From the IMG/VR virus record IMGVR_UViG_3300044645_000668, positions 1-24,317 of that record: 24,317 nucleotides of DNA. The stretch is one strand, 5' to 3'. The DNA comes from a virus. The stretch's first letter is position 1; each line of letters opens with the position of its first letter. Under the pieces are notes generated by a model that had not been told where the DNA came from, ran no database searches, and saw only the letters and a list, made by a program, of their open reading frames with translations. A program made the position numbers and the translations under genes. Of this stretch, positions 375-17,778 are shown one piece after another.

Positions 375-562
375 GCCAGCAGTGGCACTACCTCCCGGCA
401 CCGCTCGATGTCGTCCAGGCGTTGATGAGTCGTGCGTGGGACGACGACATCAGCGACGACGACCGGATTCTCATTGAGACTGCTGCACGTTCGCTGGAGG
501 CGACGCTAGAGCGTTGCGTGCGGCTGGCAAGCGTCATTGAGAAGACGGAGGTGGGGCTGTGA
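371..562 (+). CDS. Small acidic phage protein, unknown function
   Basis: A 63-residue protein whose start overlaps the previous stop (ATGA) and whose own stop overlaps the GTG of the methyltransferase (GTGA). The middle is rich in aspartate (WDDDISDDDR) and is followed by a helix-prone segment (AARSLEATLERCVRLASVIE). No signal peptide, membrane segment or known motif is visible. The tight coupling to the methyltransferase suggests co-expression, and the strong GGAGGTGG ribosome binding site for that gene lies inside this frame. I do not recognise the family. Confidence 0.65.
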   Translation: MSQQWHYLPAPLDVVQALMSRAWDDDISDDDRILIETAARSLEATLERCVRLASVIEKTEVGL

Positions 563-1548
563 CGTTTGGCGAACTGTTCGCAGGGATTGGTGGCTTTTCG
601 CTCGGTCTTGAGCGGGCCGGAATGACGTGCAAGTGGCAAGTGGAGATTGACCCGTATGCAAGAGCAGTCCTCAACAAGCACTGGCCCGACGTGCCCAAAC
701 ACGACGACGTGCGAACCTTCCCGCCAACACACACACACACACAGGATTTCAGCGTCGATCTCATCTGCGGCGGCTTCCCCTGCCAAGACATCAGCGTCGC
801 TGGCAAGGGGGCAGGACTCGCAGGCGAGAGGTCCGGTCTTTGGAACGATTTTGCTCGGATCATTCGCACAGTTCGGCCTCGATGGGTGGTCATCGAAAAC
901 GTCCCAGCTCTCACTGCTAGAGGGCTCGGAACCGTTCTCGGCGACTTGGCCGAAATCGGGTTTGATGCGGAATGGCATTGCATACCGGCTTCAGCCGTTG
1001 GTGCTCCGCACAGACGCGAACGGATCTGGATTGTGGGCAACGCCCGTTGCGAACCCATCGGCGGCAGCATCGCTGCCAGCGCTGTTGAACGAGGCCAAGC
1101 GGCTGCACCTGCGTCGCCAGTGTCCACTGGCGACGCAGGTTGCGGCAGAACATACGCACGGTTATCGAATGTGGCCGACTCCGACTGCGCACGGCTTCGA
1201 CATTGCGGACGTTCCTGCACTGCTTGCGAGACGAGAGCGGTGCAAGGAAAAGAACAAGAACGGCAACGGCTTTGGGTTGACGCTCAACCAAGCCGTCAAG
1301 GTGGCGATGTACCCAACGCCAACCGTGCAGGACGCCAGCAACAACGGCGCCCCGAGCCAACACCAGCGGAACAGCTTGCCGCTGAACGCAGTGGCTGGTG
1401 GGAGTCTGAACCCGACGTGGGTCGAGTGGCTCATGGGATTCCCTCACGGGTGGACCGCCTTAGATGCCTCGGCAACGCCGTCGTCCCGCAAGTTGTCGAA
1501 GTCATCGGGCGGGCGATCCTTGCAGCGGAAGCGAGGATGACGTCATGA
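559..1548 (+). CDS. dcm: C5-cytosine DNA methyltransferase (Dcm family)
   Basis: The protein transfers a methyl group from S-adenosylmethionine to C5 of cytosine in a specific DNA sequence. The 329 residues carry the family motifs in order: motif I FAGIGG at residues 7-12 (cofactor binding), motif IV GGFPCQDIS with catalytic Cys75, motif VI with Glu113-Asn114-Val115, motif VIII around HRRERIWI at 151-158, and motifs IX-X near the end, including RLRCLGNAVVPQ. The stretch from about 160 to 280 is the variable target-recognition region, so the methylated sequence cannot be read from it. The GTG start has a GGAGGTGG site just upstream and overlaps the previous stop. An (AC)8 run at 727-742 encodes Thr-His repeats between motifs I and IV. 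Another long frame overlaps almost the whole gene. Likely role: protection of phage DNA from host restriction. Confidence 0.93.
   Translation: MTFGELFAGIGGFSLGLERAGMTCKWQVEIDPYARAVLNKHWPDVPKHDDVRTFPPTHTHTQDFSVDLICGGFPCQDISVAGKGAGLAGERSGLWNDFARIIRTVRPRWVVIENVPALTARGLGTVLGDLAEIGFDAEWHCIPASAVGAPHRRERIWIVGNARCEPIGGSIAASAVERGQAAAPASPVSTGDAGCGRTYARLSNVADSDCARLRHCGRSCTACETRAVQGKEQERQRLWVDAQPSRQGGDVPNANRAGRQQQRRPEPTPAEQLAAERSGWWESEPDVGRVAHGIPSRVDRLRCLGNAVVPQVVEVIGRAILAAEARMTS
656..1540 (+). CDS. Overlapping open frame inside the methyltransferase gene, with WPTPT and WVEWLMGFP motifs
   Basis: One base forward of the methyltransferase frame (codon starts at coordinate mod 3 = 2), the sequence is open to a TGA at 1538-1540. 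An ATG at 656 is the first standard start, but no good ribosome binding site is seen. The translation is not random-looking. It contains WSSKTSQLSLLEG, FSATWPKSGLMRNGIAYRL, three related WATPV/WPTPT/YPTPT motifs (near 1048, 1168 and 1308) and ends with LNPTWVEWLMGFPHGWTALD. From memory, phage and metagenome ORFs with these phrases occur repeatedly beside or within cytosine methyltransferases; I cannot confirm this by search. It may be a real dual-coded protein, an alternative C-terminal half reached by frameshifting, or a compositional shadow of the methyltransferase, whose VADSD-like repeats map onto WPTPT in this frame. Confidence 0.35.
   Translation: MQEQSSTSTGPTCPNTTTCEPSRQHTHTHRISASISSAAASPAKTSASLARGQDSQARGPVFGTILLGSFAQFGLDGWSSKTSQLSLLEGSEPFSATWPKSGLMRNGIAYRLQPLVLRTDANGSGLWATPVANPSAAASLPALLNEAKRLHLRRQCPLATQVAAEHTHGYRMWPTPTAHGFDIADVPALLARRERCKEKNKNGNGFGLTLNQAVKVAMYPTPTVQDASNNGAPSQHQRNSLPLNAVAGGSLNPTWVEWLMGFPHGWTALDASATPSSRKLSKSSGGRSLQRKRG
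727..742. repeat. (AC)8 dinucleotide tract inside the methyltransferase gene
   Basis: Eight uninterrupted AC units lie between the codons for motif I and motif IV and encode Thr-His-Thr-His in the methyltransferase frame. Simple repeats of this kind in methyltransferase genes are known sites of slipped-strand phase variation in bacteria. Both the methyltransferase frame and the overlapping frame are open across the tract. No other comparable simple repeat was noticed in the window. Confidence 0.9.
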
Positions 1549-3673: not shown

Positions 3674-4072
3674 ATGAAGCCGATCACGTTCACAGTGCCG
3701 GGCGACCCAGTGCCACAGCCACGAGTGCGAGTCAGCACACGCGGCGGCTTCGCCAGAGCGTACGTGCCGTCGAAGCATCCAGTGCATGCGTACCGCGAAG
3801 GCGTATTGCGTGCGGCGATTGATGCAGGGCTGCTGCCAGTGAGCGAGCCAATCGAAGTGATCATTGACGCTGTGTTCGCACGTCCGAAATCGCACATGAC
3901 AAAGCGTGGCGTGAAAGCGTCAGCACCAGCGTTGCCAAGAGCGGATGTAGACAACGTGGCGAAGGCGTGCCTCGACTCGCTGAAGGATTTGTTCGACGAC
4001 ACGAATGTGCGGCGACTGATCGTGGAAAAGTCGTGGGGCGATGAGGCGAGAACAACGGTGAGGGTGCAGTGA
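3674..4072 (+). CDS. rusA: RusA-like Holliday junction resolvase
   Basis: A 132-residue protein of normal RusA length. RusA is a dimeric, metal-dependent endonuclease that cuts four-way DNA junctions made during recombination and replication. The N-terminal strand (ITFTVPGDPVPQPRVRV) and the core LPRADVDNVAKACLDSL followed by DDTNV are characteristic. Asp91, Asp93, Lys97 and Asp108 line up in order and spacing with the family's catalytic acidic residues and lysine. No Shine-Dalgarno sequence is evident before the ATG, consistent with a leaderless or weakly translated start. It sits between early genes and the packaging module, where a resolvase would debranch DNA before terminase loads it. 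Confidence 0.88.
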   Translation: MKPITFTVPGDPVPQPRVRVSTRGGFARAYVPSKHPVHAYREGVLRAAIDAGLLPVSEPIEVIIDAVFARPKSHMTKRGVKASAPALPRADVDNVAKACLDSLKDLFDDTNVRRLIVEKSWGDEARTTVRVQ

Positions 4073-4590
4073 GTCGTGAGCTTGTCACATTTGGCGAAGA
4101 TCAAAAGCAGGCGCTCGTCGCAGCGATGCTTGCATTTCTTGATAGGCCAGATGCCGCAGGACGTCTCATGACGGCAATGGGAGGTTTTCTGTTCGAGGAT
4201 TGGCTAGCAGATCAAGCAGCCAAAGCCGGGTTTGACTTTGAAAATGTGTCACACAAGAAACTTCCGTATGACTTGGTCATTAATGGCTATCGAGTACAAG
4301 CGAAAAGCAGCGGGTCAACAAAGGGAACGGTTGATGTCCGGCCCGTGCGTCCCGTAGTTGGCTCTACATGCAGACGATATTCGCTAGAAGATTTTGATGT
4401 ATTGGCTGTCCATCTTGCGTCCTTTGATGAGCGATACTTCATTCCTGTCAAAGAATTTCGCTGCCCTCAGTTTCAGGAGATGGTCTGCGGATGCTTCGTC
4501 AGAGATCGTCACGCAAAGTGGCGCGACGCATGGTCAGTCGTTGAGGGCAAGCGTGGCGAGTTTGCTAGCGAACAGATGCTTTTGTTCTGA
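4069..4590 (+). CDS. PD-(D/E)XK nuclease-like protein
   Basis: This 173-residue protein starts with GTG overlapping the rusA stop, with GTGAGG upstream. Glu43 in GFLFEDWL, Asp68 in LPYDLVINGY and Gln77-Ala78-Lys79 in RVQAKSS give the order E...D...QxK expected for a variant PD-(D/E)XK nuclease core. The later FDVLAVHLASFDERYFIPVKEF resembles the final strands of small restriction-like or PDDEXK domains of unknown function. The DNA is visibly less GC-rich than its neighbours, hinting at separate acquisition. It may be a homing or restriction-type endonuclease, or a nuclease working with RusA. A partnership with the methyltransferase at 559 is possible but they are not adjacent. Confidence 0.6.
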   Translation: MSRELVTFGEDQKQALVAAMLAFLDRPDAAGRLMTAMGGFLFEDWLADQAAKAGFDFENVSHKKLPYDLVINGYRVQAKSSGSTKGTVDVRPVRPVVGSTCRRYSLEDFDVLAVHLASFDERYFIPVKEFRCPQFQEMVCGCFVRDRHAKWRDAWSVVEGKRGEFASEQMLLF

Positions 4591-7530: not shown

Positions 7531-8979
7531 GTGGGACTGCTAGGCAACCTGTTCTCTCGTGGCAACAGGCCGCAGCCGGCGGCGGTGCCCGTGCGTGTCC
7601 GTGCAAAGTTCGACGCTGCCGAGAGCCAAGACGACCGGCGGCACTGGGCAAACGCTGACGCCTTCGCTGCGGATGCGGCACTCTCGCCGATGAAGCGGCG
7701 CGAGATGCGGAACCGTGCTCGCTACGAGCGTGCCAATAACTCGTGGCTCGCTGGCATCTCGTCCACGCTCGCCAATGACTTGGTCGGCACAGGCCCGCGT
7801 CTTCAGTTGCAGTTTGGCGACGACGAAAGCGCACGTGCAATCGAAAAGCTGTTCTTCGACTGGGGCTGGCAGATCGACCTTCCGGCGAAGCTGCGGACGA
7901 TGCGAGAGGCTTTGGTCGTGGACGGCGAAGCGTTCTCGCTGATGATTTCCAATCCTCGCCTGCCTGGCGTTCAGCTTGACCTGCGGCTTGTGGAAGCCGA
8001 GATGGTCGCCACGCCTACGGAACTGATGAGCGAGACGATCACGCCAGACGGCTCGACTGTTGACGGCATGGAGTTTGACTCCGTCGGCAACGTCGTTGCC
8101 TACCAAGTTCTCAACTTCCATCCCGGCAGCAATTTCCGCGTCAACACTTTGCAATTCCAGCGCGTGCCTGCTGCCCAGATGGTGCATTGGTTCCGGCCTA
8201 TCCGGCCCGGTCAACACCGTGGGTATCCAGAGGTGGCACCGGCTCTGAGGTTGTTTGGTCAGCTTCGCCGCTACACCGAGGCGGTTGTGGCTGCGGCTGA
8301 GACTGCCGCCGACTTCGCGGGCTTCCTGCGGACGAACTCGCCTGCCGCCGAGATTGACGAGGTCGAAGCGTTCGCCGAGATGCCGATTGAGAAGCGCACG
8401 ATGGTCACGCTGCCAGACGGCTGGACGTTCGAGCAGCTGAAGGCAGAGCAGCCTACGACGCAGTTCCCGTCGTTCGTGCGTCAGATTCTCGGCGAGCTGG
8501 GGCGCTGCATGAATCTGCCGTTCAACGTCTGTGCTCTCGACTCGTCGTCATACAACTATGCGAGCGGTCGCATGGACCACCAAATCTACGCGACGACTCA
8601 GCGGGTCATGCGTGACGATCTTGAGCGTGTGATGCTCGACCGTCTGCTTGCGGCTTGGGTCAACGAAGCCACGCTTGCGGGTGTGCTGCCGGAAGGCGTG
8701 CCGCCGTTCAGCGAGTGGGATTGGTCGTGGCAGTGGGATGGCAAAGAGCACGTTGACCCATCCAAGGAAGCAAACGCTGCCGAGACTCGGCTGCGGACGC
8801 ACACGACCACGCTGGCGGCTGAGTACGCCAAGGCTGGCAAGCAGTGGGATGTCGAACTGCGTCAGCGTGCCGCCGAGGTGGCGATGATGAAGGAACTCAA
8901 CCTATTCGTTGATTTCACGCCGGAAACGAATTACGGCGGGACGCTCGACGAGAACGGCGAACCAATGGGGGCGCGATGA
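7531..8979 (+). CDS. Portal protein, lambda gpB family
   Basis: The 482-residue protein forms the dodecameric ring at the capsid vertex through which DNA passes. It matches lambda-type portals: an N-terminal RREMRNRARYERANNSWLAG with TLANDLVGTGPRL, the LREALVVDGEAFSL-like strand (here MREALVVDGEAFSLMI), VHWFRPIRPGQHRGYPEVAPAL, then YTEAVVAAAETAADFAGFL and the later NLPFNVCALDSSSYNYASGR. Length is normal for the family. The GTG at 7531 is one base after the connector stop, with CAGGAA as a modest binding site; a longer in-frame extension to 7423 would overlap the connector and is unlikely. It overlaps the protease-capsid gene (ATGA). Confidence 0.93.
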   Translation: MGLLGNLFSRGNRPQPAAVPVRVRAKFDAAESQDDRRHWANADAFAADAALSPMKRREMRNRARYERANNSWLAGISSTLANDLVGTGPRLQLQFGDDESARAIEKLFFDWGWQIDLPAKLRTMREALVVDGEAFSLMISNPRLPGVQLDLRLVEAEMVATPTELMSETITPDGSTVDGMEFDSVGNVVAYQVLNFHPGSNFRVNTLQFQRVPAAQMVHWFRPIRPGQHRGYPEVAPALRLFGQLRRYTEAVVAAAETAADFAGFLRTNSPAAEIDEVEAFAEMPIEKRTMVTLPDGWTFEQLKAEQPTTQFPSFVRQILGELGRCMNLPFNVCALDSSSYNYASGRMDHQIYATTQRVMRDDLERVMLDRLLAAWVNEATLAGVLPEGVPPFSEWDWSWQWDGKEHVDPSKEANAAETRLRTHTTTLAAEYAKAGKQWDVELRQRAAEVAMMKELNLFVDFTPETNYGGTLDENGEPMGAR

Positions 8980-12928: not shown

Positions 12929-13297
12929 ATGCCGACGTTTTCTCAGCTTCCTGGCGACCTAACGGTTGAGTTCGTGGTCGCTGACGAAGTCAACTTCACG
13001 CTTGACCTAGACGTTGACGTGACGGGCTACACGTTTACGGCAGGCGTCTACGTCGTCTCCACTAACGGCTTCTTCGGTGGTGGTGGCGGAACGATCAACG
13101 CTGTCGGTGCCACGGCGATCACGCCGACGATCACGGTCGTGAACGCTGCGGCTGGCACTCTGTCGTGGGGCGTGAGTGAAGCCCAGACGGTGACGCTGTC
13201 GCCTGCGATCAAGTACCGGCATTTTGTGCGGTGGGTGACTCCTGCCGGCGTGACTCGCACGGTTGTCTCTGGCGACCTCATCGCAAAGGCACCATGA
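12929..13297 (+). CDS. Small beta-rich baseplate/fibre adaptor-like protein
   Basis: A 122-residue protein between two fibre genes. The pattern LPGDLTVEFVVADEVNFTLDLD, then VDVTGYTFTAGVYV, and later ITVVNAAAGTLSWGVSEAQT and YRHFVRWVTPAGVTRTVVSG suggests an Ig-like beta sandwich like the N-terminal domain of lactococcal BppU-type fibres, which bind the baseplate. The Gly run GGGGG in the middle is a flexible loop. Its stop overlaps the start of the large fibre (ATGA), consistent with joint assembly. No enzymatic motif is visible. Confidence 0.6.
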   Translation: MPTFSQLPGDLTVEFVVADEVNFTLDLDVDVTGYTFTAGVYVVSTNGFFGGGGGTINAVGATAITPTITVVNAAAGTLSWGVSEAQTVTLSPAIKYRHFVRWVTPAGVTRTVVSGDLIAKAP

Positions 13298-15957
13298 GCA
13301 ACATCACCGTCAACGTCACGAACGCCGGGGCGGCTAACGTCGCCGTCTCCAACGGCTCGACGGTCAATGCGACTGTCGGTAATGGCGGTGCGGTCAATGT
13401 GTCGCTCGGCACGATCTCGCCGGGCAACGCCACGGTCGTGTCTGGGACCGTCCAGGTTGGCAAGGTCACGACGCTGGCGGCTGGAAGCAACGCCACAGTG
13501 ACGAACACCAACGGCACAAGCTACGCAGCCGTGCTTGATTTCGGCATACCGGCTGGCCCGTCTACGTCCGTGAGCGTCGGCAGCACGACCACGCTGGCGG
13601 CTGGCAGCAACGCCAGCGTCACCGGCACAACGAGCGACGGCAACCTGACGCTGTCGTTTGCGATCCCTCGCGGCACCAACGGGACTACGCCGAGCTTCAC
13701 CATCGGCAACGTCTCGACGGTGGCTGCTGGTGGCTCTGCTACCGTGACGGCAACGCCAAGCAACGGCGGGGCGAACGTCACGCTCGACTTTGGCATCCCG
13801 CGAGGCGCGGACGGCGCGGGCGGCGGCTCTAGCGTCTCGCTCTCCGACGCCACGCCATCGGCTCTTGGCACAGCGTCGGCGGGCACCAGTTCGCTCGCCA
13901 GCAGGAGCGATCACGTTCACGCCGTGCCCGTCATCAGCTATGCGAACCTGACCAACGTGCCAAGCACGTTTGCTCCGTCGGCCCATCAACACGCGGTTGG
14001 CGACGTGACAGGCTTGCAGACCGCGCTCGACTCCAAGAGCGCGACCAGCCACGCACACAACTACGTTACAGCGCTCAACAGCCTCACGGGTGGCGTCACG
14101 CTGGCGGCTGGCAGCGGCGTGACACTGTCCACCAGCGGCTCGACGCTCACTATTGCCGCGACGGCTACGGACGATGCGGACGGCGGTTTCTACGAGGGCT
14201 ACGTCCCGGCGAACACGATCACGATCGGCACGCAGCCGACCGCGCAGACTGCGAGCGGTGGCGCTGCGACGTTCTCGGTTTCTGCGACCTCGTCTCCCGG
14301 CGGCACGATTTCATATCAGTGGCAAAAACAGGACGGCGGCTACGGCAGCTATGTGGATGTCGATGGAGCCACGTCGGCCTCGCTCTCGCTGACGGGTTTG
14401 CTCAACACGGTGGACGATGCCGACCTCTACCGGGTGGTCGTGAGTGCGACGAACGCTGCCAGCGTGACAAGCACCTCGGCGCTGCTGACAGTGCCAGCGA
14501 ACGTCATCACGATCACCTCGCAGCCGTCGAATCAGACCGCCGCCAGTGGGGCGGCGACGTTCACGGCATCGGCATCGGTTGCTCCCAGCGGCACCGCGAG
14601 CTACCAGTGGCAGCGTTCGGCGGACGGTTCAGCGTGGGCAAACGTCAGCGGAGCCACGTCCGCCTCGCTGGCCTTGTCGGGCCTCACGGTCGAGGCGGAT
14701 GGTGGGGCTCAGTTCCGCGTGGTGGTGTCTGCGACCAACGCAGCCAGCGTGACGAGCAGCGCGGCTACGCTCACGGTCGAAGCGAATAACACGATCACGA
14801 TCACAAGCCAGCCGTCGAGCCAGACGGCATCGGGCGGGGCTGCCACGTTCTCGGTGGCGGCAAGCTCGGCACCGGCGGGCACGCCAGCGTATCAGTGGCA
14901 GAAGGCCGAATTTGTGCCTGCTCGCTCTGCGGCGTGGGTGCAGCGGACATTGCCGTCGTCGCAGGCGTGGAGTGCTGTCGCTTACGGCGGTGGTGTGTTT
15001 GCGGCTGTCGCGATCAACAGCAACGTCGCAGCCAGTAGCACGGACGGGCTGACGTGGACACAGCGCACGCTGCCGAATAGCACGACGTGGGGCGACATCG
15101 CCTACGGTGGCGGGCAGTTTCTGGCAGTCAGCAACACTGGCTCGACGGCATCCAGCGGCGACGGTGCTACATGGACGGGAGGCGGCTCCCTGCCTAGCAC
15201 GGGAAATCCTGGCGCGTGGGCCGTCGCGTTCGGCAATTCGCTATTCGTCGCAGTGCGGGCTGACGGCACGATTGCGACCTCTGACACTGGATTCGCGTGG
15301 ACGCAGCGGCGGGGGGCAGTGACCGGCACATACGGCCACAAAATTGCGTTTGGAGGCGCACAGTTCGTCGTTGTGAACGACTCGCCCGGCGGCGGATACG
15401 GTTACGTCACAAGCACTGACGGCGTGACGTGGCCGGCGGGCGGGTATTTGCCCGCTGAAAACACTCGCGCCGGGATTGTGTACGGTGGAGGTCTGTGGGT
15501 GGTCGTGGATCGCGGAAATGGCGCAGGCAGCAGCGCCTACTACACAAGCACCAACGGCACTACGTGGACCAAGCGCACGTTGCCCGTGACCGCCGACTGG
15601 CGAGCAGTCACCTACGGCGACGGCGCGTTCGTTGCGGTTTCCAGCGGCTCGCCGTCCACGACGCTCACCAGCACGGACGGGCTGTCGTGGACTCAGCGCA
15701 CGCTGCCGAGCACAGCGGGATGGAGGGCGGTTGGATTTGGCGGCGGCACGTTCGTCGCGCTGTCCAATTCCAGCAAAGCCGCCAGCGCAGCGCCCGGCAT
15801 CGGCACGTTCTCCAACATCAGCGGAGCCGCGTCATCGTCGCTCGCCTTGACGACCCTCGGCGCGGCCGACAACGGCGACCAATACAGAGCCGTCGTCAGC
15901 GCCGCCAACGCCGCCAGCGTCACCAGCCAATCCGCCACGCTCACCATCACGGGGTAA
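13294..15957 (+). CDS. Large tail fibre with Ig-like domains and an inserted seven-bladed beta-propeller
   Basis: The 887-residue protein reads as follows. Residues 1-180 hold three repeats of a fibre module (TTLAAGSNATVTNTNGTSYA..DFGIP). Residues 205-290 are a stalk with HAHAI-like collar segments (SAHQHAVGDVTGLQTALDSK). Two complete Ig-like domains occupy about 308-401 and 404-495 (ITSQPSNQTAASGAATF, YQWQRS, FRVVVSATNAASVTS). A third begins at about 500, is interrupted after YQWQKAE (about 538), and resumes at about 837 with FSNISGAASSSLALTTL to the end. The insert (541-835) has seven blades, each with W..LP..W..VAYGGG.FVAV and mostly ending in an Asp-box-like STDGLTW. This suggests carbohydrate or protein binding at the fibre tip. 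The ATG at 13294 overlaps the previous stop; a longer frame upstream is shadow. Confidence 0.88.
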   Translation: MSNITVNVTNAGAANVAVSNGSTVNATVGNGGAVNVSLGTISPGNATVVSGTVQVGKVTTLAAGSNATVTNTNGTSYAAVLDFGIPAGPSTSVSVGSTTTLAAGSNASVTGTTSDGNLTLSFAIPRGTNGTTPSFTIGNVSTVAAGGSATVTATPSNGGANVTLDFGIPRGADGAGGGSSVSLSDATPSALGTASAGTSSLASRSDHVHAVPVISYANLTNVPSTFAPSAHQHAVGDVTGLQTALDSKSATSHAHNYVTALNSLTGGVTLAAGSGVTLSTSGSTLTIAATATDDADGGFYEGYVPANTITIGTQPTAQTASGGAATFSVSATSSPGGTISYQWQKQDGGYGSYVDVDGATSASLSLTGLLNTVDDADLYRVVVSATNAASVTSTSALLTVPANVITITSQPSNQTAASGAATFTASASVAPSGTASYQWQRSADGSAWANVSGATSASLALSGLTVEADGGAQFRVVVSATNAASVTSSAATLTVEANNTITITSQPSSQTASGGAATFSVAASSAPAGTPAYQWQKAEFVPARSAAWVQRTLPSSQAWSAVAYGGGVFAAVAINSNVAASSTDGLTWTQRTLPNSTTWGDIAYGGGQFLAVSNTGSTASSGDGATWTGGGSLPSTGNPGAWAVAFGNSLFVAVRADGTIATSDTGFAWTQRRGAVTGTYGHKIAFGGAQFVVVNDSPGGGYGYVTSTDGVTWPAGGYLPAENTRAGIVYGGGLWVVVDRGNGAGSSAYYTSTNGTTWTKRTLPVTADWRAVTYGDGAFVAVSSGSPSTTLTSTDGLSWTQRTLPSTAGWRAVGFGGGTFVALSNSSKAASAAPGIGTFSNISGAASSSLALTTLGAADNGDQYRAVVSAANAASVTSQSATLTITG

Positions 15958-15960
15958 GCC

Positions 15961-17778
15961 ATGCCCAATCGCATCAAGCCACGCAGATCGTACACCGCCA
16001 ACTCCGTGCCGCTCACGAGCGACCTTGACACGCACGAGCTGGCGATCAACTGGGTGGACGGCAAAGCGTTCACAAAGGATGCCAGCGGCAACATCGTCAG
16101 CGTGACGCTCGGCGGGAGTGGTGGTGGCGGCGGCTCTGGTGGCTCGCTCTCTGGCAGCGTGACGATACCGGCGAGCGATCCGTACTGGGACAGCGTGCTG
16201 CTGCTGCTTCGCGGCGACGGCAACTTCACAGACGCGTCAAAGTACGGTCGCACGCTTACAGCCCACGGCAATGCGGCTGCGACGGCGGCTGGTAAATACG
16301 GCACCAACTCTATCGCGCTGGATGGAACGGGCGACTACCTGTCGCTTTCAAGCAGCGATTTTGCTTGGGGAACATCCGACTACACACTAGAGGCGTGGGT
16401 GTGGCTCAATAATCTTGGATCGTATGGCAGTTGGTTTTCAACACTCTTCAGCGACGGCAATATGTCCGGCGGGGTGAGTGCAGGAATTACCAATACAGGC
16501 ATGCCCTACTTGGAACACCTCAATGGATTTAGTGTCGTTGGCTCAACTGCTTTTCCTACGGCGCAGTGGGTCCATGTGGCCGCGACTCGCAGTGGCAATA
16601 CTGTGAAATATTACGTCAACGGATCTTCCGTTGGCAGTGTTTCGTTTTCCGGTTCGCACACAAATAGCTCCGTTGTCGTTGGGCGGTTCTACACTGACTT
16701 GGACAACAACTACTGGAACGGCCGCATCGCAGAACTCCGCGTAACGAAAGCGGCCCGCTTTACCGCGAACTTCACGCCGCCGACTGCCGCTCTGCCGACG
16801 ACGATCTTTCAGGCATCGCCCCAGACCCTCCCCGTCACTATCACCGGCTCGGGCGGCGGCGGCTCTGGCCTCTCATGGTCAAGCGTGCCAGCCTCCGCGA
16901 CGGCGACGGGGACGGCTGGGCAGATCAGCTACGACTCGTCTGGCTATTTCTACGTTTGCACGGCGGCGAATACGTGGCTGCGGGCGGCGTTGAGTACGTG
17001 GGACTCTGACGCCACTGCGTTCCTGACAGCGGCGGGCATCACGGACGCAACACAGTCATCGGCTATAGGGACGCTCGTCGGATCGCTGAAGAGCGCGGGC
17101 GTCTGGTCAAAAATGCGCGCGATTTACCCGTTCATCGGCGGCACGGCATCGACTCACAAATGGAACCTCAAAGACCCGCGAGACTTGGACGCCGCCTATC
17201 GGCTGGCGTTTTCAGGCAACTGGACGCACTCCGCAACGGGGGTCACTCCAGATGGCAGCACAGCGTACGCCAATACGTTCGCCGTGCCATCCACGTTTTT
17301 TAGCGACTACACAGGCGCATACGGCCTGTATCTGCGCACCAACCCAGCATCTTCGACTGGGTATCGAGTGGACATGGGCGCACAGTTTTTCTCGGACCCA
17401 ACAAGCAACCGATTTCTCCAGCATATCGGATCAACCGACGGCAATTCGTACTACGACTGGCGGAATCGCGTAACAGTTGCCACGTCGACCGTCGGTAGTG
17501 TCATTGGGTTCCATGTCGTCTCGCGGACAAGCACTTCGCTGATGACGGTCTACCGGAACGGCAATTCGGTTGCGTCCGGGACATCGTCGGACATCACCAC
17601 CGACCTGCCAAATCGCGCGCTCTACATCGGCGCACAGAACCACTCCGACGGACCGAGCTTGCACTCAAACCGCGAGCAGTCATTTGTGTTTCTGTCGGAA
17701 TCTCTGTCTGGCTCGGAAGTGACTGCCGTCAATGCCGCCGTGCAGGCGTTCCAGACGGCACTTGGCAGGAACGTCTGA
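15961..17778 (+). CDS. Tail fibre protein with LamG-like lectin domains
   Basis: A 605-residue protein. Residues 1-50 (NRIKPRRSYTANSVP, THELAINWVDGKAF, VTLGG) are a fibre attachment module, then a Gly/Ser linker. Residues 78-270 form a LamG/concanavalin-like jelly roll: LLLRGDGNFTDASKYGR, YLSLSSSDFAWGTSDYTLEA, WVHVAATRSGNTVKYYVNG, GRIAELRVTKAARF. After another Gly-rich linker, residues 300-340 are a short module (AGQISYDSSGYFYVCTAANT). Residues 355-605 contain a second phage-type LamG-like domain, with IYPFIGGTASTHKWNLKDPR and a later HVVSRTSTSLMTVYRNGNS. It likely binds surface glycans. The first lectin domain is visibly lower in GC than its flanks, suggesting exchange of the receptor-binding part. 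The ATG is three bases after the previous stop. Confidence 0.85.
   Translation: MPNRIKPRRSYTANSVPLTSDLDTHELAINWVDGKAFTKDASGNIVSVTLGGSGGGGGSGGSLSGSVTIPASDPYWDSVLLLLRGDGNFTDASKYGRTLTAHGNAAATAAGKYGTNSIALDGTGDYLSLSSSDFAWGTSDYTLEAWVWLNNLGSYGSWFSTLFSDGNMSGGVSAGITNTGMPYLEHLNGFSVVGSTAFPTAQWVHVAATRSGNTVKYYVNGSSVGSVSFSGSHTNSSVVVGRFYTDLDNNYWNGRIAELRVTKAARFTANFTPPTAALPTTIFQASPQTLPVTITGSGGGGSGLSWSSVPASATATGTAGQISYDSSGYFYVCTAANTWLRAALSTWDSDATAFLTAAGITDATQSSAIGTLVGSLKSAGVWSKMRAIYPFIGGTASTHKWNLKDPRDLDAAYRLAFSGNWTHSATGVTPDGSTAYANTFAVPSTFFSDYTGAYGLYLRTNPASSTGYRVDMGAQFFSDPTSNRFLQHIGSTDGNSYYDWRNRVTVATSTVGSVIGFHVVSRTSTSLMTVYRNGNSVASGTSSDITTDLPNRALYIGAQNHSDGPSLHSNREQSFVFLSESLSGSEVTAVNAAVQAFQTALGRNV

Follow-up and report, generated by a model that had tools for sequence, protein, structure and literature searches.

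The window, which is the whole 24,317-base stretch of virus record IMGVR_UViG_3300044645_000668, contains two long overlapping reading frames. The first one (alpha) codes for the catalytic subunit of a cytosine-5 (m5C) DNA methyltransferase. The second one (beta), in frame +1 to alpha, is open for 294 codons from an ATG at 656 to a stop at 1540, so that the original prediction was right in describing a second frame across almost the whole methyltransferase gene. The list of open reading frames starts beta at TTG 647, we have judged ATG 656 to be the better start. The main features are the following:

559 to 1548, plus strand: alpha, m5C methyltransferase catalytic subunit with motifs I–VIII and X, GTG start, 329 amino acids
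577 to 660, plus strand: alpha motifs I (FAGIGGF) and II (VEIDPYA); the beta ATG is supplied by the TATGCA coding for YA
642 to 645, plus strand: GGAG, putative internal ribosome-binding site, 10 nt 5' of ATG 656, within the codons of alpha motif II
656 to 1540, plus strand: beta, predicted recognition cassettes plus motif IX, frame +1 to alpha, 294 amino acids
769 to 786, plus strand: alpha motif IV (GGFPCQ), with the catalytic Cys
887 to 976, plus strand: conserved N-terminal block of beta (WSSKTSQLSLLEG...TWPKSGLMRNG), dual-coding with alpha motifs VI–VIII
889 to 903, plus strand: alpha motif VI (VIENV)
1012 to 1035, plus strand: alpha motif VIII (RRERIWIV)
1034 to 1171, plus strand: beta cassette 1 (WATPVANPS...)
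1057 to 1452, plus strand: alpha residues 167–298, predicted unstructured linker from motif VIII to motif X (AlphaFold2 pLDDT below 50; alpha-frame identity 0.31 over homologous cassettes)
1172 to 1309, plus strand: beta cassette 2 (WPTPTAHGF...LTLNQAV)
1310 to 1402, plus strand: beta cassette 3 (YPTPTVQDASNNGAPSQHQRNSLPLNAV), common to distant loci
1403 to 1456, plus strand: beta motif IX (SLNPTWVEWLMGFPHGWT), assigned from a split-beta profile match to canonical motifs IX–X; in frame with I–VIII and X in single-chain relatives
1456 to 1491, plus strand: alpha motif X (RLRCLGNAVVPQ)

The phrases quoted from the second frame in the original prediction are all found: SSKTSQLSLLEG at about 890–925, TWPKSGLMRNG at 944–976 and LNPTWVEWLMGFPHGWT within 1403–1456. 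Its three WPTPT-like motifs correspond to the xTP starts of the cassettes at 1034, 1172 and 1310, the placing of VADSD under WPTPT is exact, and TPSSRK (1475–1492) is present under LGNAVVPQ of alpha motif X. On the other hand, the statement that the methyltransferase frame carries all motifs from I to X has to be corrected. Motifs I–VIII and X are in that frame, but motif IX (LNPTWVEWLMGFPHGWT) is found in the beta frame, and the predicted recognition region, formed by the tandem WPTPT cassettes, also belongs to the second frame. We should also note that eight AC repeats (727–742) lie within both overlapping frames, where alpha reads THTHTHTQ. A slip of one unit in these repeats would shift both frames, so they are a candidate hot spot for phase variation or population variation. 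No match was found in an Rfam search of positions 400–1700.

Alpha has the motifs which define the catalytic core of an m5C methyltransferase: I, IV (PCQ), VI (ENV) and VIII. It matches Pfam PF00145 with an E value of 2.2e-47, only at model positions 1–162 of 324, and phrog_363 with an E value of 1e-87. A recognition domain followed by motif IX in the same chain is not found in alpha alone. An AlphaFold2 model, obtained with a 45-sequence alignment, has a pLDDT of about 95 for residues 1–166, and motif X is also ordered. The 132 residues from 167 to 298 have a pLDDT below 50, without any secondary structure until the motif X helix starts at 295. The best PDB matches of the model are M.HhaI (top) and M.HaeIII, with about 165 residues aligned, ending at the catalytic domain. 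Judging from this model, alpha lacks the small (recognition) domain.

Beta residues 5–286 match positions 8–295 of the 329 in phrog_1008, labelled "DNA methyltransferase", with an E value of 4.3e-27. This label gives no hint that the family has members with recognition cassettes and motif IX and without a catalytic domain. Neither Pfam nor NCBIfam has a model matching beta at E 1, and no PDB sequence is matched by the beta profile or by one split beta (see below). The AlphaFold2 model of beta alone has low confidence (pLDDT 61, pTM 0.27). Given this weak model and the lack of a PDB sequence match, no fold is assigned to beta; a poor prediction is what a subunit which depends on its partner might show when modelled alone, and is no evidence of a fold.

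Related loci are abundant. A tblastn search of IMG/VR with the second frame gave at least 597 viral relatives, and a profile search of bacterial genomes gave 387 relatives. We have fetched 80 of the former and 80 of the latter, plus seven phage records. In the 80 viral loci and in the seven phage records beta is always exactly +1 to the methyltransferase frame. We have classified all fetched non-identical loci according to their architecture. A nested beta with motif X in alpha is found in 204 loci, a split layout with beta carrying motif X in 45, and a single chain in 23; about a dozen are exceptions, some of them with frame breaks inside the gene (for example L126 and L170). The +1 offset is constant in all the nested and split loci. 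Nested pairs are found in many bacterial phyla, with about 30–60% identity and intact catalytic motifs.

Motif X changes frame with the architecture, belonging to alpha in nested loci and to beta in split ones. In some relatives alpha ends soon after motif VIII and beta runs on with its own motif X, such as LKALGNGVCPQ in Arthrobacter phage Chocolat or RIGNGVVP in phiBT1. In the single-chain relatives, motifs IX and X are in the methyltransferase frame in all 23 cases, and 17 of them also have in-frame cassettes. For example, Hamulus gp68, Wachhund gp69 and ShiLan gp70 have a single frame in which motifs I–VIII are followed by three to five LPTP cassettes and then by motifs IX and X. Zerg, which belongs to the same genus as these three phages, is nested; in fact, single, nested and split forms are all found in the genus Cheoctovirus. 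The N-terminal block of beta is absent from the single-chain relatives.

The split loci also bear on the mention, in the original prediction, of phage genes with these phrases standing on their own near methyltransferases. This is correct, since Rebeuca (gp79), Toaka (gp82) and Chocolat (gp81) have beta homologues as genes apart from the methyltransferase frame. In all such cases, the separate gene lies beside a catalytic subunit, none has been found far from any methyltransferase. In phiBT1 (L176, positions 1926–2855), methylase 9.1 is annotated as "may be inactive", and the 600-bp annotation gap after this gene contains the greater part of a beta which has motifs IX and X and is itself unannotated. 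Two other loci have additional beta genes. An Actinomycetota metagenome-assembled genome has a second beta-like reading frame directly 3' of a nested pair (L166, 2755–3726), apparently a duplicate of the recognition subunit which has no catalytic core of its own. In L219, two successive beta-type frames (1085–2014 and 1965–2765), each with motifs IX and X, follow one alpha, so there may be two recognition subunits for one catalytic subunit.

Comparison of profiles indicates what beta may be. When compared directly with canonical methyltransferases, the nested-beta profile gives only a chance-level match at motif IX (E 0.42). The split betas, which match phrog_1008 strongly and for which Pfam and NCBIfam give nothing useful, provide the connection. 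Their C-termini align with canonical motifs IX–X (E 1e-4, probability 57%), their ends align with alpha motif X (E 4e-7), and their motif IX aligns with that of nested betas (E 7e-14). The link from nested beta to the canonical enzymes thus runs through the split and single-chain forms. In the latter, cassettes, IX and X are in frame with I–VIII, which argues that the second frame supplies motif IX and the recognition part of the enzyme. On these sequence comparisons, beta is the missing C-terminal half of the same methyltransferase, its recognition part being predicted.

The open second frame might be a shadow of alpha, whose conservation and GC-rich codon usage could keep the +1 frame open and apparently conserved. 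We have compared the real sequences with synonymous shuffles, in which the alpha protein and its codon usage are fixed. Out of 1000 shuffles of the window, 11 have a stop-free second frame, so an open frame by itself is not very rare. Shuffled genes also retain some similarity to beta, with averages of 68–85 bits, and to this extent the shadow explanation is partly true. It does not account for the actual scores. When the window and its six nearest rows are left out of the beta-family HMM, the window beta scores 264 bits, while no shuffle exceeds 130.6. We have also scored 118 held-out homologous loci whose alpha frame is open. The mean is 203 bits for the real sequences and 67.5 for the shuffled ones, and none of the 100 shuffles made for each locus equals the real score in any of them. 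The second frame is therefore conserved beyond what the methyltransferase protein requires. It has fewer stops than expected in these loci, 132 being found when 525 are expected, and many of the residual ones lie before the beta start or just beyond motif IX. Beta is also retained in Paenibacillus and Lacticaseibacillus phages (L081 and L085), it continues past the alpha stop in 45 loci, and its cassettes vary at beta third positions, all of which speaks against a shadow. This explanation is ruled out by the permutation tests. Beta is a conserved, selected protein, not a chance frame.

Possible starts for beta are also enriched. A Shine-Dalgarno sequence followed by ATG or GTG in the beta frame is found inside alpha in 36 of 155 loci, about six times the 5.8 expected; the maximum in 200 permutation rounds was 12 loci. 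Many of these sites correspond to the alpha residues EVPxYDDV, whose codons are able to read GGAGGTG...ATG. The site in the window is more modest: Its own putative ribosome-binding site has only the four bases GGAG.

The comparison of 453 nested pairs shows how constraint is distributed along the overlap. The third codon position of alpha, which is the second of beta, differs in 0.52–0.65 of the cases in alpha-dominated stretches, and this value drops to 0.303 across the N-terminal block of beta, from SWRTSQ to WPRSG. In motif IX, alpha third positions diverge by only 0.165, and the beta third position is the most variable. A different pattern is found in homologous nested cassettes, where divergence at beta positions 1, 2 and 3 is 0.286, 0.236 and 0.584, in pairs chosen on beta identity. 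Selection in the alpha frame would make beta position 2 the most variable; as it is the least variable, the cassettes must be constrained in the beta frame. Since alpha-frame identity over homologous cassettes is also low (0.31), cassette DNA appears to be beta coding, which alpha tolerates as a linker rich in Gly, Ala, Arg and Ser. True dual constraint is found in the beta N-terminal block and in motif IX/X. The idea that two constrained proteins share one DNA stretch thus holds, as the second frame is kept in homologues, with a restriction: Strong dual constraint covers only about 40 codons (SWRTSQ to WPRSG) and motif IX/X, and cassettes are constrained in the second frame only.

The cassettes are short modular units. 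We have collected 505 of them, with a median size of 35 residues, and most loci have from one to seven per beta; for nested betas the usual number is from one to five. Single-chain relatives have them in tandem between motifs VIII and IX. The sequence P[STCA]PT, which belongs to the TL motif described for the recognition domains of m5C enzymes (PMC2413257), is found in 201 of the 505 cassettes, while the fuller TL consensus is found in 15. It is likely, short of proof, that each cassette is a recognition domain, as suggested by the presence of P[STCA]PT. Cassettes do not always follow the rest of the gene. An identity of 70% or more is found in 275 cassette pairs from loci with less than 55% identity in their alpha cores; 156 of these pairs come from loci sharing no other cassette, and 81 are at a different position. 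Such sequence comparisons indicate that cassettes are exchanged between distant relatives. Cassette 3 of the window (PTPTVQDASNNGAPSQ...RNSLPLNAV) also appears in Verrucomicrobia, in Burkholderiaceae and in one Arthrobacter phage. In L054, two cassettes of one beta share 83% identity, pointing to a recent tandem duplication.

The full explanation which we favor, with a probability of about 90%, is a split cytosine-5 DNA methyltransferase with both of its subunits encoded in a single DNA stretch. The frame starting at GTG 559 would give alpha, formed by the AdoMet-binding and catalytic domain (I–VIII), a long disordered linker and motif X. Translation would start a second time within the gene, at ATG 656 with its weak GGAG site, and give beta in the +1 frame, where the overprinted N-terminal segment would be followed by three recognition cassettes and then by motif IX. 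Beta would stand in for the recognition domain absent from alpha, and both subunits would associate to form the active enzyme. Its likely role would be the multispecific methylation of phage DNA as a protection against host restriction. We infer this role from the phage context and because there is no convincing adjacent restriction gene, as only a weak PD-(D/E)XK match, below the Pfam cut-off, is found at 4069–4587.

Some of the same observations may be read in other ways. Programmed +1 frameshifting could fuse motifs I–VIII of alpha to the cassettes and motif IX, instead of a separate beta being made from a second start. The existence of single chains with the same order would agree with this, as would the constant offset in nested and split loci. 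Nevertheless, constraint on the beta frame reaches upstream over alpha motifs VI–VIII, a part where the product of a shift would not use this frame. In addition, internal start sites are more frequent than expected, and split loci give beta its own reading frame, often with an annotated start. We consider frameshifting improbable. An even smaller chance should be given to a beta which only shares the locus and whose function is unrelated, for instance inhibiting host restriction or acting as a regulator. Its N-terminal block is new when compared with the single-chain enzymes, and neither Pfam nor NCBIfam has a model for beta, but cassettes and motif IX occur in frame inside single-chain methyltransferases, motif X sits in whichever chain can carry it, and the parts missing from alpha are exactly those of beta. 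Finally, the coexistence of the three forms in Cheoctovirus could suggest that a recent frameshift broke a single-chain enzyme and that both frames are decaying. Purifying selection in both frames, together with the presence of intact nested pairs across many bacterial phyla, makes such decay hardly credible.

Two subunits encoded in one DNA stretch, as we propose, would combine features known from other enzymes: a nested, out-of-frame subunit which carries a recognition array. M.EcoHK31I is made of two polypeptides, and there too the smaller one is encoded in a different frame within the gene for the large one. It methylates YGGCCR, with motifs I–VIII and X in the large polypeptide and IX in the smaller one (PMC3404938), the same division that we find in the window, as far as its description allows a comparison. 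In M.EcoHK31I, however, the predicted recognition domain is described in the larger subunit (PMC3404938), while in the window the interval of alpha between motifs VIII and X is predicted to be disordered, and recognition-like cassettes are found in beta. In M.AquI, the large subunit has I–VIII, and the small one has the distal part of the recognition region and motifs IX–X (PMC3404938). This is the layout of our 45 split relatives (phiBT1, Rebeuca, Toaka and Chocolat among them), unlike the window, where motif X is in alpha and beta is fully nested. The multispecific enzymes of phages SPR, phi3T and H2 are single chains. These Bacillus phage m5C methyltransferases have tandem recognition domains for several targets (PMC8936443). 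They resemble the window in being phage enzymes with tandem units of this type; in the window the array is in another reading frame, and it would be multispecific by analogy. We have found no description of nested phage methyltransferase subunits in the literature searched, mostly without subscription papers, and given this limited coverage their novelty is provisional.

As for the evolution of these genes, a maximum-likelihood tree of alpha cores requires 12 changes of architecture; after shuffling of the labels, 40 are needed. If the tree is rooted with canonical enzymes, the nested lineages come first, and the actinophage single and split group falls inside them (support 88/91). The tree suggests that the nested form is ancestral, provisionally, as its backbone is weak and the bootstrap is unsettled. 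A nested alpha needs only an open linker frame through cassette DNA, so cassettes could be gained, lost or exchanged. As the catalytic chain would read this DNA only as a disordered linker, swapping would leave the catalytic fold untouched. A wider proposal would be that nesting is an evolved platform for such swapping, that it is among the most widespread conserved overlaps in phages, and that actinophage single chains are later fusions of the nested pair. We hold this tentatively, giving it slightly less than an even chance. If the platform reading is true, phages gain a multispecific methylation which can change quickly.

Outside small viruses it is uncommon, to our knowledge, for two needed coding frames to share a long conserved overlap, and such overlaps are discarded by annotation tools. 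Several hundred loci, in phages and in many bacterial phyla, hide a subunit of a common enzyme in this way. The hidden beta gene is either unannotated, called an "internal gene" (Diva), or labelled as a methyltransferase despite having no catalytic domain. For restriction-modification studies, the cassettes point to a code of natural, modular type by which the targets of cytosine methylation are set, and which could be read by methylome sequencing. For the study of gene evolution, the same enzyme as a single chain, a split pair and a nested pair is a natural experiment on how overlaps originate and are resolved.

Other genes in the window may be mentioned. Upstream of the methyltransferase, 108–374 codes for a small protein with a LexA DNA-binding domain (E 3e-20), too short for the LexA protease domain. 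Directly downstream of the pair, 1615–2766 codes for a phage DNA polymerase III beta sliding clamp with all three Pfam domains. The 610 amino acid protein at 8976–10808 matches a phage capsid family in its C-terminal half, and its N-terminal part looks like a prohead protease by eye. In the virion region, 15961–17778 codes for a protein with a concanavalin A/laminin-G-like domain, possibly involved in host binding, and just before it a 908 amino acid reading frame (13231–15957) has repeat-like segments.
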